Shown piece by piece: positions 39,579-45,936 of a stretch of DNA of 64,000 bases; position 1 is the first letter of the stretch, and each line of letters begins with the position of its first letter. The notes under the pieces were generated by a model. It was not told the origin of the DNA. It was given only the letters and a program-made list of their open reading frames with translations, and did no database searches. Source of the stretch: Candidatus Rokuibacteriota bacterium (GTDB lineage Bacteria; Methylomirabilota; Methylomirabilia; Rokubacteriales; CSP1-6); assembly GCA_003220535.1 (NCBI GenBank), contig QHSU01000057.1, positions 231,397-295,396 on the forward strand. Direction: 5' to 3'. A program made the position numbers and the translations under genes.

Positions 39579-40343
39579 GTGGCGATGAGTCACGTCCACG
39601 GTGACACATGCGAGCGAGCCCGCGAGCCCGGCGGACCGACCCGGCCCCCAATGGAGGACCACTGGGACGCGTACTGGAATCGACTGGAAGAGCACGTCAT
39701 CTTTCGTGTGGAGGCGGCCGATTACGTCGCCCGTCTGGAGGCCGCGATTGGCTTCGACACCAGCACGCGGGTGCTGGACTTCGGCTGCGGGTTCGGATTC
39801 GTCGCCGAGCTCCTCGCGCCGAGCGTCGCGACACTGTTCGCGTTCGACGCGTCGGATCACATGCGGCGTCGGGCGCGGCTCCGGCTCGCCGGCTACGCCA
39901 ACGCACGAGTTCTGGGCGCGCTCGCGGGGTGGCCGTCGGCGCTCCGGTTCGACCTCATCTTGGTCAACAGCGTCGTGCAGTACATGGCGCGAGAGGAGTT
40001 TCACCGATGGCTGGAGCAATGGCGCCCGATGCTCGCTCCCGGGGGACGCCTCGTGCTCTCGGACCTCGTCACCCACAACGTCGAGCCACTCCGCGAAGTA
40101 GTCGACATGCTGGCCCTGAGCGCTCGACGCGGGTGCCTGATGCGCGTCGTGCGGAAGGCGCTCGGAGAGCTTCGCCACTACGCCAGGACGCGGCGCGTCC
40201 GGCCACTTTTCCGGATCGCCTTCGGCGAGCTGCGTGAGCGAGCCGGCCAGCTGGGGCTGGCGGTAGACATCCTGCCAACGAACCTGACATACCGGAACAC
40301 GCGGGCCACCGCGATTCTCTCAATACCGGCGGCCGACCGTTGA
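39579..40343 (+). CDS. class I SAM-dependent methyltransferase
   Basis: VLDFGCGFGFVAELLAPSVATLFAFDASDHMRRRARLRL...EQWRPMLAPGGRLVLSDL. Confidence 0.87.
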   Translation: MAMSHVHGDTCERAREPGGPTRPPMEDHWDAYWNRLEEHVIFRVEAADYVARLEAAIGFDTSTRVLDFGCGFGFVAELLAPSVATLFAFDASDHMRRRARLRLAGYANARVLGALAGWPSALRFDLILVNSVVQYMAREEFHRWLEQWRPMLAPGGRLVLSDLVTHNVEPLREVVDMLALSARRGCLMRVVRKALGELRHYARTRRVRPLFRIAFGELRERAGQLGLAVDILPTNLTYRNTRATAILSIPAADR

Positions 40344-41209
40344 TGCGGACGTTCGCTTTCCGGCTACTGCCGGCGATGCTGCTGCTCCCGCTCTTCCTGG
40401 GATTGGCGGCTAGCTCGGAGCCGGCCGACTACGCCCGGGCGCCTGTCTTGTTCGTCCACGGCCACGGCCTGTCCTCCGCCGACTGGCGACCGCTGATCGA
40501 GTACCTGGCTGCGAACGGGTATGCGCGCGAATACTTGCACGGTGTGGACATCGTCCCGAACACGATGGCCAACGCGCAAGCCGCCACGTCGGTGATCGCG
40601 CCGGCGGTCGACTCGCTGCTCGCCAGGGCGAAGACCGCCGCCCAGAGGGCCGGGTACCGCGGTGAGGTGCCGCGCCGGCTCGACATCGTCTCGCACAGCA
40701 TGGGCGTGGTGAGCAGCCGGTGGTACGCGGCCAAGCTCCGTCCCGAGCGCGTCCGCACCTGGATCGGCCTGGCCGGAGCGAACCACGGCACGCAGGCGCT
40801 CTGCCCCTTCCAAGATGAGGCGTCCCGAGAAATGTGCCCCGCCTTCGCGAGCAATGCGCGGACGCACGCGCTGCAGGTGGCTCTCAATGGCACGGAGAGA
40901 GAGCGGGTCGACGAGACACCCTATGGTCTCGGACCCGACCGACCGGCCGTCCCGCGCATCCCTCCCGATGGCACGCGCAGCATCCTCTATCTCACTGTCC
41001 GAGTCGAGCCGGACGACTGGATCCAGCCCGAGCGCAGTGCGCTCCTGGATGGAGCCGGAGGCGTGCCGATCCGGGTGCCGGCCGGCGTACCGGTTCGGCA
41101 AACCAGCCCGGGTAACTTCCTCTTTCAGGAGCCGGTCGGGCACGATCCTCTGCTCCTGCATCCGGACCTGCTCCGTCTCGTTGCCGCCATGCTGGCCGCC
41201 CGCGACTGA
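40343..41209 (+). CDS. secreted alpha/beta-hydrolase (lipase/esterase-like)
   Basis: Signal peptide; APVLFVHGHGLSSADWRPLIEYLAANGY...LDIVSHSMGVVSSRWYA. Confidence 0.85.
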   Translation: MRTFAFRLLPAMLLLPLFLGLAASSEPADYARAPVLFVHGHGLSSADWRPLIEYLAANGYAREYLHGVDIVPNTMANAQAATSVIAPAVDSLLARAKTAAQRAGYRGEVPRRLDIVSHSMGVVSSRWYAAKLRPERVRTWIGLAGANHGTQALCPFQDEASREMCPAFASNARTHALQVALNGTERERVDETPYGLGPDRPAVPRIPPDGTRSILYLTVRVEPDDWIQPERSALLDGAGGVPIRVPAGVPVRQTSPGNFLFQEPVGHDPLLLHPDLLRLVAAMLAARD

Positions 41210-41404: not shown

Positions 41405-43864
41405 ATGAACAGCAAAACGAAACTGTCCGTGGCGACAATGGTCGTTGCGCTCGCCTGCGCTCTGACCGCCGGCGAGGTCGCCGCGCAGACGATCACCGTC
41501 GCGCCGGCGAGTCCCACCATCGCGGTGGGGCAGACCCAGCAGTTCACGGCGACGGGAGTGGGCACGGCTACGGCCATCGACATGGGCGCCTTTCACTCCT
41601 GCGCCCGGTTTCAGGACGGCACGGTGCGCTGCTGGGGGAACAACGTCTCGGGCCAGCTCGGGGACGGGACCCAGACCGATTCCTCGATGCCGGTGGCGGT
41701 CGTTGGGATCACCGGCGCTGCGGCGGTCACCGGCGGCGGCTTCCACACGTGTGCACGCTTTCCCGATGGCACGCTGCAATGCTGGGGACGGAACAACGCC
41801 GGCCAGCTCGGCGACCCGGCCACCCTGCGCGAGGCCGTCACCACCCCGGTGCGGGTCACCGGAATCACCACCGCCACTGCGGTGAGCGCCGGCGGGTTCC
41901 ACACGTGCGCGCTGCCGGGCGACGGCACGGTGCGCTGCTGGGGCCAGAACGACTACGGGCAGCTCGGGAACGGGACCAGCGATCCGGTTCCCGACAGCCC
42001 CTCGACCTTCAACCCCACGCCGGTGACGGTCAGCGGCATCACCACCGCGGTGGCGATCTCGGCTGGCGGTTGGTACACCTGCGCCCTGCTCCAGAACGGC
42101 ACGATTCGGTGCTGGGGGGACAACACCTACGGCCAGCTCGGCGACGGCGCCACCATTGCGCCGCCCACCGTCCGCATTGCGTCCACGCCCGTCACCGTCA
42201 GCGGGATCACGACCGCGGTCGCGATCGACGCGGGGATCTTCCACGTGTGCGCGCTCCTTCAGGACGGCAGCGCGCGCTGCTGGGGCCGCAACGGGGACGG
42301 CCGGCTCGGCAACGGGAGCACGGCGAATTCCTCCACGCCGACGGCAGTCCCGGGCGTCAATCCCGTCGCCCTCGGGGCTGGCGCCGAGCACGCGTGCGCC
42401 GTGCTCGGAGACGGCACGGTGCGCTGCTGGGGGGACAACAACTGGGGTCAGCTCGGCAACGGGTCCCCAGAAGGCACAACGTCCACGATCCCGGCGGCGC
42501 CGGCCACGGGGATCACCACCGCCATCGCCACCTCCGCCGGGGCCGAGCACAATTGCGTGCTCCTTCGGGACGGCACCGTGCGCTGTTGGGGGAACAACAA
42601 TTTCGGTCGGGTCGGGGTTGGGACCACTGCGGCCGGTACGCGACCCTGCCTGAACAGTCCCTCCTGTGCGTTCAGCCCGGTGGCGGTCGACGGGATCGGT
42701 GGGGTGGTGTGGACGAGCAGCGACACGACGGTCGCGACCATCGATGCGAACGGGTTGGCCACGGCGCGTGGCCCCGGATCCACCACGATCACGGCCGCGT
42801 CTGGCGGCCGCAGTGGGAGCACCGTCCTCACCGTCGCGACTCGCCCCACCCTCTCGGTGGTCCGCGAGGGCACGGGCGGCGGTACCGTGAGATCCGGTGA
42901 CGGGAGGATCGTGTGCGGGGCCACTTGCGCGGCCGACTACGCGAGCGGCAGCTCGGCGACCCTGACGGCAACCGCCGACCCCGGCTCCACCTTTGAGGGC
43001 TGGCGCGGCGGCGGCTGTGCTGGCACCGGTGCCTGCACCGTCACCCTCTCGGCCTCCACCACCGTCTTCGCCAGCTTCGGCGTCTTCCGCCCCGCCACCT
43101 TCACCCTGACGGTGACGGTCAACAACGCGGGCACCGGCAGCGGCACGGTGACCTCCAATGACGGCGGGATCAACAACTGCGGGACCAGTTGCTCGGCGTC
43201 CTACGATAGCGGCACGCCGGTGACCCTGACGGCGAGGCCGGCCACCGGATCCATCTTCACTGGCTGGAGCGGATGCGACGCGGTCTCTGGCACGACCTGC
43301 ACCGTGACCATGAACGCGGCGAGGTCGGTCACCGCCAGCTTCGCCCGGCAGCGCTTCACCCTCACGGTCGCGGTCAACAACGTGGGCACTGGCAGCGGCA
43401 CGGTGACCTCCAATGACGGTGGGATCAACAACTGCGGGGCCAGTTGCTCGGCCTCCTACGATAGCGGCACGCCCGTGACCCTGACGGCGAGGCCGGCCAC
43501 CGGATCCATCTTTACCGGCTGGAGCGGATGCGACACGGTCTCTGGTACGACCTGCACCGTGACCATGAACGCGGCGAGGTCAGTCACCGCCATCTTTGCC
43601 CCGCAGACGTTCACCCTCTCGGTGACCCGTCAGGGCAACGGCACCGTGACCTCCATCTCCCCTGACGGCAGGATCGACTGCGGGAGCGCTTGCTCGGCCT
43701 CCTACAACAGCGGCACCGTCGTGACCCTCAGGGCGACGCCGGGCTTGCTGTACGCCTTTGCAGGCTGGAGTGGCGGTGGCTGTTCTGGCACCGGCGACTG
43801 CGTCGTGACTCTGCGGGCGAATACGACAGTCACCGCCAGGTTCTCGTTCTTAGGGCTGTTCTAG
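41405..43864 (+). CDS. secreted RCC1-repeat beta-propeller protein with split Big_2 domain and four C-terminal InlB-B-like repeats
   Basis: Signal peptide; seven blades of type AGGFHTCALxxDGTVRCWGxNxxGQLGNG; Big_2 halves ITVAPASPTIAVGQTQQFTATG and VWTSSDTTVATIDANGLATARGPGSTTITAASGGRSGSTVLTV; four VxxxGxGTVTS...CxxxCSASYxSGTxVTLTAxPxxGSxFxGW repeats. Confidence 0.9.
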   Translation: MNSKTKLSVATMVVALACALTAGEVAAQTITVAPASPTIAVGQTQQFTATGVGTATAIDMGAFHSCARFQDGTVRCWGNNVSGQLGDGTQTDSSMPVAVVGITGAAAVTGGGFHTCARFPDGTLQCWGRNNAGQLGDPATLREAVTTPVRVTGITTATAVSAGGFHTCALPGDGTVRCWGQNDYGQLGNGTSDPVPDSPSTFNPTPVTVSGITTAVAISAGGWYTCALLQNGTIRCWGDNTYGQLGDGATIAPPTVRIASTPVTVSGITTAVAIDAGIFHVCALLQDGSARCWGRNGDGRLGNGSTANSSTPTAVPGVNPVALGAGAEHACAVLGDGTVRCWGDNNWGQLGNGSPEGTTSTIPAAPATGITTAIATSAGAEHNCVLLRDGTVRCWGNNNFGRVGVGTTAAGTRPCLNSPSCAFSPVAVDGIGGVVWTSSDTTVATIDANGLATARGPGSTTITAASGGRSGSTVLTVATRPTLSVVREGTGGGTVRSGDGRIVCGATCAADYASGSSATLTATADPGSTFEGWRGGGCAGTGACTVTLSASTTVFASFGVFRPATFTLTVTVNNAGTGSGTVTSNDGGINNCGTSCSASYDSGTPVTLTARPATGSIFTGWSGCDAVSGTTCTVTMNAARSVTASFARQRFTLTVAVNNVGTGSGTVTSNDGGINNCGASCSASYDSGTPVTLTARPATGSIFTGWSGCDTVSGTTCTVTMNAARSVTAIFAPQTFTLSVTRQGNGTVTSISPDGRIDCGSACSASYNSGTVVTLRATPGLLYAFAGWSGGGCSGTGDCVVTLRANTTVTARFSFLGLF
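43110..43615 (+). repeat. 255-bp (85-codon) tandem duplication encoding InlB-B-like repeats 2 and 3
   Basis: GGCAGCGGCACGGTGACCTCCAATGACGG.GGGATCAACAACTGCGGG.CCAGTTGCTCGG... occurs twice, 255 bp apart, with few differences. Confidence 0.9.
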
Positions 43865-44064
43865 GGACAGCGTACGCCTGTCTCTCGAGCACCCGGCGCC
43901 GCGGCCGGAGGCTGCCCTGACTTTCCGTGGTGGCGTGAGAGTTCGCCACATCCAGTGTTCAGCGTTTCTCCGTGGCTGATTCAGGGCTCGGCCTGATTGA
44001 TCTGTCACGCTCGAGACTCCAGGATGGTTCACGAAGAGCTGAACGTGGAGGGGAAAGGTTGGAG

Positions 44065-45936
44065 ATGAACAGAAAGGCGAAGCTCCTCGTTGTCTTGGCC
44101 GTCCTTGCGCTGGTCTGCGCCTTGGCCAAGGCCGAGGTGGCTGCGCAGGCCATCACCGTGTCTCCCGCCAATCCCACCATTTCCGTCGGTCAGAATCAGC
44201 AGTTCACGGCGACCGGAATCACCTCGGCCATCGCCGTCGACGCCGGGAGCTTCCACACTTGTGCGCTCCTTCAGGACGGTGCGCTGCGGTGCTGGGGGCT
44301 GAACGACTCGGGTCAGCTCGGCAACGGGACCACAACCAGCTCCTCGACGCCGGTGGCGGTCGCTGGAATCACGGGAGCCGCTGCCGTCACGGGCGGTGGC
44401 TATCACACCTGCGCGCGCTTTACGGACGGCACGCTGGAATGCTGGGGACGGAATGACGCCGGCCAGCTCGGCGACCCGGCCACTACGACAGACGTCTCCG
44501 GAATTCCGGTACGGGTCACCGGCATCACCACCGCGACCGCTGTCACGGCCGGTGGCTTCCACACCTGCGCGCTACTTCAGGACGGCACGGTGCGGTGCTG
44601 GGGGCAGAACACCTTCGGTCAGCTCGGCAACGGGACAATCCTCAATTCCTTCACGCCGGTGGCGGTCAGCGGAATCACCACCGCCGTGGCCGTCTCAGCC
44701 GGCGGTTGGCATACCTGCGCGCTCCTGCAGGACGGCACCGTACGCTGCTGGGGGCGGAATGAGGACGGGCAGCTCGGCAACGGGACGATCATTCCTTCTC
44801 TCACTCCGGTGGCGGTGAGCGGAATCACCACCGCTGTCGCCGTCGAAGCCGGGATCTTCGACACCTGCACACTCCTGCAGGACGGCACCGTGCGCTGTTG
44901 GGGACGGAACACTGAAGGCCAGCTCGGCAACGGGACCACCACCAGCTCCTCCGTCCCCGTAACGGTCAGCGGCATCACCCCCGCTGCCCTCGCACCCGGT
45001 GCCGAGCATAGCTGCGCGCTCTTCCGGGACGGCACGGTGCGCTGTTGGGGTGACAATAACTTCGGCCAGCTCGGCAACGGGACCGCGCCACGCACGATCT
45101 CCACTATCCCTTCGGCACCGGTCACCGGAATCGCCACCGCTACTGCCCTCGCATCGGGTGCCGTGCACAGTTGTGCGCTCCTTCCGGACGGCTCCGTGCG
45201 CTGCTGGGGGCAGAACAACTTCAGCCAGCTCGGAAACGGGACGACGACCGATGCGTTCACCCCCGTGGTTGTCACCGGCATCGGCGTGACGTGGACGAGC
45301 AGTGACACGACCGTCGCAGCAATCGATGGAGCCGGGTCGGCCACGGGCCGTGGCCCTGGATCCACCACAATCTCCGCCACCTCTGCCGGCCGGAGCGGGA
45401 GCACCACGCTCACGGTGGTGACTCGGCCCAGCCTCACGGTGGTCCGTGAGGGCACCGGGAACGGCACGGTGACCTCCAGTCCCGCGGGGATCGACTGCGG
45501 CACCACCTGCTCAGCCTCCTACGACAGTGGCACCGCGGTGACCCTCACGGCGACGCCCGCCAGCGGCTCGACCTTTGAGGGCTGGACGGGCGGCGGCTGC
45601 GCCGGGACCGGTCCCTGCACCGTGACCCTCACAGCCAGCACGACCGTCTTCGCCCGCCTCGCCGTCCCCCGCGTCAGCCTCACGGTGACCCGTGAGGGCA
45701 CCGGGAGCGGCACCGTAACCTCCAGTCCCGCGGGGATCGACTGCGGCGCCGTGTGCTCGGCCTCCTACGAGAGCGGCACCGTCGTGACCCTCACGGCGAC
45801 GCCCGCCACCGGCTCGACCTTTGAGGGCTGGACAGGCGGCGGCTGTGGCGGCACCGGTACCTGTACCGTCACCGTGACCGGAAACACCGCCGTCTCCGCC
45901 CGGTTTTCGGTCCTGGGGCTGAGAGGGTTGCTATAA
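44065..45936 (+). CDS. secreted RCC1-repeat protein, tandem paralog of 41405-43864 with two InlB-B-like repeats
   Basis: MNRKAKLLVVLAVLALVCALAKAEVAAQAITVSPANPTISVGQNQQFTATG...seven RCC1 blades...VTWTSSDTTVAAIDGAGSATGRGPGSTTISATSAGRSGSTTLTV. Confidence 0.9.
   Translation: MNRKAKLLVVLAVLALVCALAKAEVAAQAITVSPANPTISVGQNQQFTATGITSAIAVDAGSFHTCALLQDGALRCWGLNDSGQLGNGTTTSSSTPVAVAGITGAAAVTGGGYHTCARFTDGTLECWGRNDAGQLGDPATTTDVSGIPVRVTGITTATAVTAGGFHTCALLQDGTVRCWGQNTFGQLGNGTILNSFTPVAVSGITTAVAVSAGGWHTCALLQDGTVRCWGRNEDGQLGNGTIIPSLTPVAVSGITTAVAVEAGIFDTCTLLQDGTVRCWGRNTEGQLGNGTTTSSSVPVTVSGITPAALAPGAEHSCALFRDGTVRCWGDNNFGQLGNGTAPRTISTIPSAPVTGIATATALASGAVHSCALLPDGSVRCWGQNNFSQLGNGTTTDAFTPVVVTGIGVTWTSSDTTVAAIDGAGSATGRGPGSTTISATSAGRSGSTTLTVVTRPSLTVVREGTGNGTVTSSPAGIDCGTTCSASYDSGTAVTLTATPASGSTFEGWTGGGCAGTGPCTVTLTASTTVFARLAVPRVSLTVTREGTGSGTVTSSPAGIDCGAVCSASYESGTVVTLTATPATGSTFEGWTGGGCGGTGTCTVTVTGNTAVSARFSVLGLRGLL

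Follow-up and report, generated by a model that had tools for sequence, protein, structure and literature searches.

A seven-bladed RCC1 propeller probably nested within a split Big_2 immunoglobulin domain in two tandem paralogs from Candidatus Rokuibacteriota

The insertion of one domain into another is a familiar kind of event, and in the hybrid domain of integrin beta a whole I-like domain is inserted into a loop of an immunoglobulin (Ig)-like domain. Seven-bladed RCC1 propellers are represented by the solved structures of UVR8, the RCC1-like domain (RLD) of HERC2 and RCC1, which are eukaryotic proteins; the Ran exchange activity of RCC1 is unexpected in an exported bacterial protein. In bacteria, published accounts describe BLIP-II as a secreted RCC1-group beta-lactamase inhibitor (PMC9218822), BamI of Bacteroidota as a protein with the order Ig domain then propeller (PMC12578637), and Bap1 and RbmC of Vibrio cholerae as biofilm adhesins in which an exported propeller binds the organism's own exopolysaccharide (PMC10102183). 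Here, two tandem paralogous genes from Candidatus Rokuibacteriota are analysed, located in a 64,000-nucleotide stretch of contig QHSU01000057.1 (the window), whose products carry seven RCC1 blades between two parts of what is probably one Ig domain of the Big_2 family. As in integrin beta, a domain would thereby be accommodated in an Ig-like loop, the insert there being I-like and not a propeller.

The first-pass annotation of the window had placed two tandem paralogs with seven RCC1 units each at 41405-45936, and both open reading frames (ORFs) lie there on the forward strand with seven RCC1 stretches apiece in Pfam. Protein 1 (819 amino acids, 41405-43864) starts at an ATG, and the open frame of protein 2 extends from a GTG at 43972 to 45936 with the ATG at 44065 as the likelier start, because a signal-peptide-like stretch opens there, giving 623 amino acids (44065-45936). 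The paralogs are 69% identical in a whole-genome comparison and share the same order of parts, namely a signal-peptide-like start, a 24-residue Big_2 start (the N-half), seven RCC1 blades, the remainder of Big_2 (the C-half) and a tail of InlB-type B-repeats, four in protein 1 and two in protein 2. Both N-termini show a hydrophobic stretch followed by AAQ, which was read as a signal peptide by eye from the translation, and both proteins are presumably exported. That the first Big_2 strands directly follow the signal peptide, as had been claimed, holds for both proteins with the N-half at residues 28-51, and the spacing given as about 380 residues corresponds to inserts of 380 amino acids in the first and 355 in the second protein.

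In protein 1, the signal-peptide-like N-terminus (residues 1-27, EVAA then Q28; 41405-41485) precedes the N-half (41486-41557; Big_2 profile positions 2-26), the propeller (41558-42697; RCC1_2 at 1.4e-66 and RCC1 at 7.7e-51, seven stretches each, and seven hairpins with both cysteines), the C-half (residues 432-477; 42698-42835; profile 34-79) and four divergent B-repeats with cysteine pairs (42836-43861; PF18998, Flg_new_2, E 1.7e-31). The corresponding parts of protein 2 are the signal-peptide-like N-terminus (44065-44145), the N-half (44146-44217; profile 2-29, with predicted strands), the propeller (44218-45282; seven Pfam stretches and a structural match to UVR8), the C-half (residues 407-451; 45283-45417; profile 35-79) and two B-repeats (45418-45933; PF18998, E 4.2e-13). 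The PF18998 stretches, four and two, are above the cut-off. The RCC1 repeats (PF13540, PF00415, PF25390) reach 219 and 236 bits against a curated cut-off of 22, and the overall RCC1-like domain 3.3e-79 in protein 1 and 7.6e-76 in protein 2.

Big_2 (PF02368) is not contiguous in either sequence but occurs as two separate stretches per protein, with 29.2 and 27.5 bits, and the whole profile is covered only once the flanks are joined. When the flanks of seven of the nine complete nested proteins were joined and searched together with three controls against all of Pfam, each of the seven gave a single Big_2 stretch (42.8-52.5 bits) extending from position 2-4 to 74-79 of the 79 profile positions. 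The joined halves of protein 1 matched as one stretch from 2 to 79 (E 2.5e-12); alone, its N-half reached E 4.4e-4 (20.6 bits, profile 2-25) and its C-half E 1.3e-8 (35.1 bits, profile 36-79), and a control join in swapped order produced two Big_2 stretches. The statement of the first-pass annotation that the halves read together make one normal Big_2 domain is thus borne out at the level of profile matches. Missing between the halves are only profile positions 26-35 or so, which are the part that the propeller replaces and which we take to correspond, in standard Ig nomenclature, to the loop between strands B and C.

A scan of the whole source genome (7.18 Mb on 162 contigs, completeness 93.8, contamination 8.2) gave five Big_2 matches at E<=1, consisting of the two N-halves (profile 2-26 at E 0.035 and 2-29 at E 0.0145), the two C-halves (profile 34-79 at E 2.6e-7 and 1.7e-5) and a single further match, unrelated and below the threshold; no intact Big_2 was found elsewhere in the 7.18 Mb scanned. 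As judged from these profile matches, the split is beyond chance, since complementary halves lacking only positions 26-35 or so recur in independent relatives. Two trivial explanations were discarded: chance likeness of the short N-half to Big_2 is ruled out by the joined-flank matches and the reciprocity of both junctions, and an annotation or assembly artefact by the recurrence of the same split on contigs of other genomes.

The most probable reading, with a probability of roughly 0.88, is that the N- and C-half constitute one Ig fold with the propeller in place of its B-C loop. An AlphaFold2 model of mature protein 2, based on an alignment of 10 rows, has a mean predicted local distance difference test score (pLDDT) of 92.0 and a predicted template modelling score (pTM) of 0.68, with 87.6 pLDDT for the N-half. 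Strands are predicted in the N-half at residues 4-6, 11-13, 17-19 and 21-23 of the mature protein and in the C-half at 382-385, 391-393, 398-401, 405-413 and 416-425. Upon prediction of the same protein with the same alignment from after the N-half, the C-half dropped in pLDDT from 89.7 to 81.8, with 94.8 to 95.1 for the propeller and 88.9 to 88.4 for the B-repeats, these region averages being approximate as derived from rounded block means. Only three of 57 ten-residue blocks shifted by at least 5 pLDDT, all of them in the C-half (-17, -11 and -6).

The outcome of the deletion agrees with a single Ig domain to which both flanks contribute and, as far as a predicted model can, speaks against the N-half as an extra strand that closes the propeller next to a separate or degenerate C-terminal domain. 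Such an arrangement would have precedents, as ring closure in propellers commonly involves strands of the two termini, and Bap1 is described as having such a Velcro strand (PMC10102183). Yet deletion of the N-half lowers the C-half and leaves propeller confidence unchanged, the insert itself supplies seven blades, each with predicted strands, four in nearly every case, and the N-half matches Big_2, not RCC1, so that closure of the propeller by the N-half is regarded as very improbable.

More difficult to separate from the favoured fold is completion in trans, whereby the N-half of one chain completes the C-half of another, perhaps of the neighbouring paralog, to give strand-swapped dimers or chains. 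Paralogs with matching halves stand in tandem here and tandem copies occur again in G073 and G008, and sequence as well as single-chain prediction are blind to cis versus trans. On the other hand, tandem copies are not universal, the nested genes standing alone in the stretches read of G004, G081 and G095, and the model of the single chain has high confidence in both halves. A closed propeller brings its two ends close together, which favours pairing within one chain, and completion in trans is considered improbable.

Several points weigh against the one-domain reading itself. The pTM is just 0.68 and all 10 rows of the alignment are related; the pairing of the N- and C-half was read from the change in pLDDT and not from contacts; and the fold comparison was confined to the propeller (23-395), the rows of the VIA-align table being filled by propellers, with no Ig-fold matches for the Ig part among them. 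Structure prediction had been proposed as a check of the nesting in both proteins; run on mature protein 2 it gave a confident model in which flanks that do not pair were not seen, as judged by an indirect test. The nested insertion as such, which the first-pass annotation had put forward, finds support in the joined flanks, the fixed insertion point and the effect of N-half removal on the C-half alone.

The propeller compares well with known structures. UVR8 ranks ahead of HERC2 and RCC1 in Foldseek and VIA-align (E 3.8e-36; Z 55, root mean square deviation 1.6-1.7 over about 356 residues, 28% identity), consistent with the seven-bladed fold in the predicted model. In contrast to these three proteins, the blades here carry a cysteine pair and the propeller would reside in a Big_2 loop; no case of a propeller within an Ig domain was present in the match list. 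BLIP-II resembles the nested proteins with a sequence E of 5e-14 and a Z of 29, but its solved chain of about 273 residues matches the propeller only, with no Ig or B-repeat part matched. Two loci from Gemmatimonadota (L068, L250) and one from Pseudomonas (L251), for example, combine an Ig-type domain and C...CW RCC1 blades in one protein, but their translations place the whole Ig-type domain before the propeller, in tandem and not nested. Bap1 and RbmC differ by eight blades, a Velcro strand and beta-prism domains from the seven blades here (PMC10102183). Limited searches of the open-licence literature, which miss most subscription papers, found no account of an Ig loop that holds an RCC1 propeller.

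The nested arrangement is conserved among relatives. The complete set comprises nine proteins, the two of the window and those of L048, L049, L050, L051, L052, L053 and L138, and in all nine the N-half after the start is followed by exactly seven blades in an insert of 355-380 amino acids and then by the C-half, with the same insertion point. Genomes titled Candidatus Rokubacteria or Rokuibacteriota (L047, L048, L049, L051, L052, L053) share this arrangement with one titled Actinobacteria (L050) and one from the Gemmatimonadota sample (L138). For the latter two mis-binning is possible, because the sample series of L050 is named like those of Rokubacterial bins and L138 is a contig of just 4,346 bases; horizontal transfer may also account for them. 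Profile searches of 95 genomes of the phylum identified 10 copies of the N-junction and eight copies spanning the C-junction, and both halves were present in 7/7 copies whose contig extends past both ends. The copies at contig ends were three with the N-half only (G008 C301 and second copies in G008 C61 and G073) and one with the C-half only (G002); a further N-half fragment at a contig end in G032 fell below the threshold of the N-junction profile. RCC1_2 was detected at E<=1e-6 in 10 of the 95 genomes, seven of which hold the nested family (G002 as a fragment only), and over the part that was read, the RCC1 proteins of G018 and G091 display neither the cysteine pair nor a Big_2 half; the protein of the tenth, G017, was not read through.

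In eight aligned proteins, with non-independent pairs and 21 pairs for the first B-repeat, mean pairwise identity was 0.66 for the N-half, 0.56 for the propeller, 0.67 for the C-half and 0.58 for the first B-repeat. The pooled ratio of nonsynonymous to synonymous polymorphism (pN/pS) was 0.41, 0.60, 0.45 and 0.59 in the same order, the values for the halves being calculated from 24 (N-half) and 47 codons. The Ig halves are hence more conserved than the propeller or the first B-repeat. Were the split halves the relic of a domain-shuffling accident without a folded Ig, some damage would be conceivable, as about ten profile positions are replaced; retention of both halves in nine of nine complete relatives and their higher conservation compared with the propeller render such a relic scarcely probable at all. 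The B-repeats, as read from the sequence, seem dispensable, because the protein of G073 (L049:3903-5219) ends right after the Ig C-half without them.

The C...CW pair that had been ascribed to each blade was recovered with its second cysteine in 62 of 63 blade hairpins of the nine nested proteins, one blade of L052 being without it; the first cysteine was required by the search pattern. Outside the nested family, blades were counted with a seed of nested-family hairpins with masked cysteine columns, on condition that W or F follows the second cysteine. At the loosest threshold, blades of non-nested cellular loci showed both cysteines in 17 cases, neither in three and one in none, and viral blades neither in 260 and one in two, blades within one protein not being independent; a stricter count was too strict for use. 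As tandem, non-nested RCC1 proteins possess the pair as well, it is not special to the nested ones and appears to be a mark of a wider RCC1 type. One disulfide per blade, as predicted in the first-pass annotation, would fit, because both cysteines occur all-or-none in other RCC1 blades; the prediction gains support from this pattern and is not proven by it.

A survey of the insertion point, likewise proposed beforehand, found it shared by all nine complete relatives, and no split was detected in the non-family RCC1 loci scanned. Among 40 loci of the genome-contig scan, seven belong to the nested family, six with both halves and one (L047) cut at the contig start, and the split-domain detector did not find the split arrangement in the other 33. 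Equally, no split Big_2 around RCC1 blades was reported by the detector in 9 + 76 loci on viral contigs. RCC1 matches were found in 86 plasmid and 15 phage records, and the two plasmid loci inspected both have an Ig-type region before the propeller. Searches with a C-junction profile (E<=1e-12, at most 14-30 candidates scored per genome), which would miss divergent or differently inserted cases, gave no match in 195 genomes from the phylum of G103 or 396 from that of G101, and only G095 itself among 396 of its own phylum. In the Gemmatimonadota sample, one of 395 genomes (G451) matches the whole junction and 10 others mainly its Big_2 side. Nesting as a common feature of bacterial RCC1 proteins is unsupported within the samples scanned.

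Some loci met in these scans deserve mention in their own right. In G103 (L140, L141; L074 is titled Deltaproteobacteria nzgw248), the RCC1/Big_2 junction profile picked up 344-364 first-look candidates, and this genome encodes proteins with 13-14 C...CW-type blades, an unusual RCC1 expansion. RCC1-repeat ORFs of great length, in which 16-20 blade motifs are present, lie on two IMG/VR contigs (L176, L229).

If the propeller is indeed a loop of a single Ig domain, strands A and B would be made first, the propeller next and the remaining Ig strands last, the late strands closing the fold on the two starting ones. The Ig domain would then tie the ends of the propeller like a clasp and join it to the B-repeat tail. 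An extended version, in which the Ig domain is a purpose-made clasp that folds only after the propeller and replaces a Velcro strand, with possible strand exchange between the paralogs leading to pairs or chains in the exopolysaccharide matrix, is conceivable but unlikely.

The genomic context suggests a role connected with surface polysaccharides. The surroundings in the window encode glycosyltransferases, a sugar aminotransferase, UDP-N-acetylglucosamine (UDP-GlcNAc) 2-epimerase, UDP-glucose dehydrogenase, polysaccharide deacetylases and acetyltransferases, and the relatives adjoin a UDP-sugar dehydrogenase and Asn synthase in G004 and an O-antigen ligase, a polysaccharide deacetylase and a glycosyltransferase in G008. 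A class-2-lipase-like hydrolase (40340-41209, forward strand; PF01674, E 1.9e-7) lies upstream in the window; such a gene directly precedes the nested gene in three genomes (G000, G005, G073) and is a possible functional partner. In the stretches read, tandem pairs are found in G000, G008 and G073 and single nested genes in G004, G081 and G095. In place of recognised polysaccharide genes, a pyridoxal phosphate (PLP)-dependent decarboxylase gene (L146:11305-12675 and L147:3409-4788) adjoins the nested gene in G081 and G095; this shared context may indicate a Rokubacterial origin of the contig from the bin titled Actinobacteria.

By analogy, not homology, with the propeller of Bap1 and RbmC, which binds exopolysaccharide, the nested proteins might be exported to the surface or matrix of the cell and bind a ligand there. 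Binding of the propeller to a ligand on the cell exterior, or within the exopolysaccharide produced by the surrounding gene cluster, is a tentative proposal that we rate at less than even odds; the link to surface polysaccharides is not universal in view of G081 and G095, and the sequence features give no pointer to a propeller ligand.

The wider importance of these proteins is limited for now. They would nevertheless provide a clear example from nature in which a large toroidal domain lies within a small Ig fold, apparently without destruction of the latter, with insertion point and blade count unchanging across several species, and one that a routine Pfam scan misses by displaying two partial Ig matches. 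As such, the family may serve to test ideas on the origin and folding of nested domains and on grafting a propeller into a loop of an Ig scaffold.

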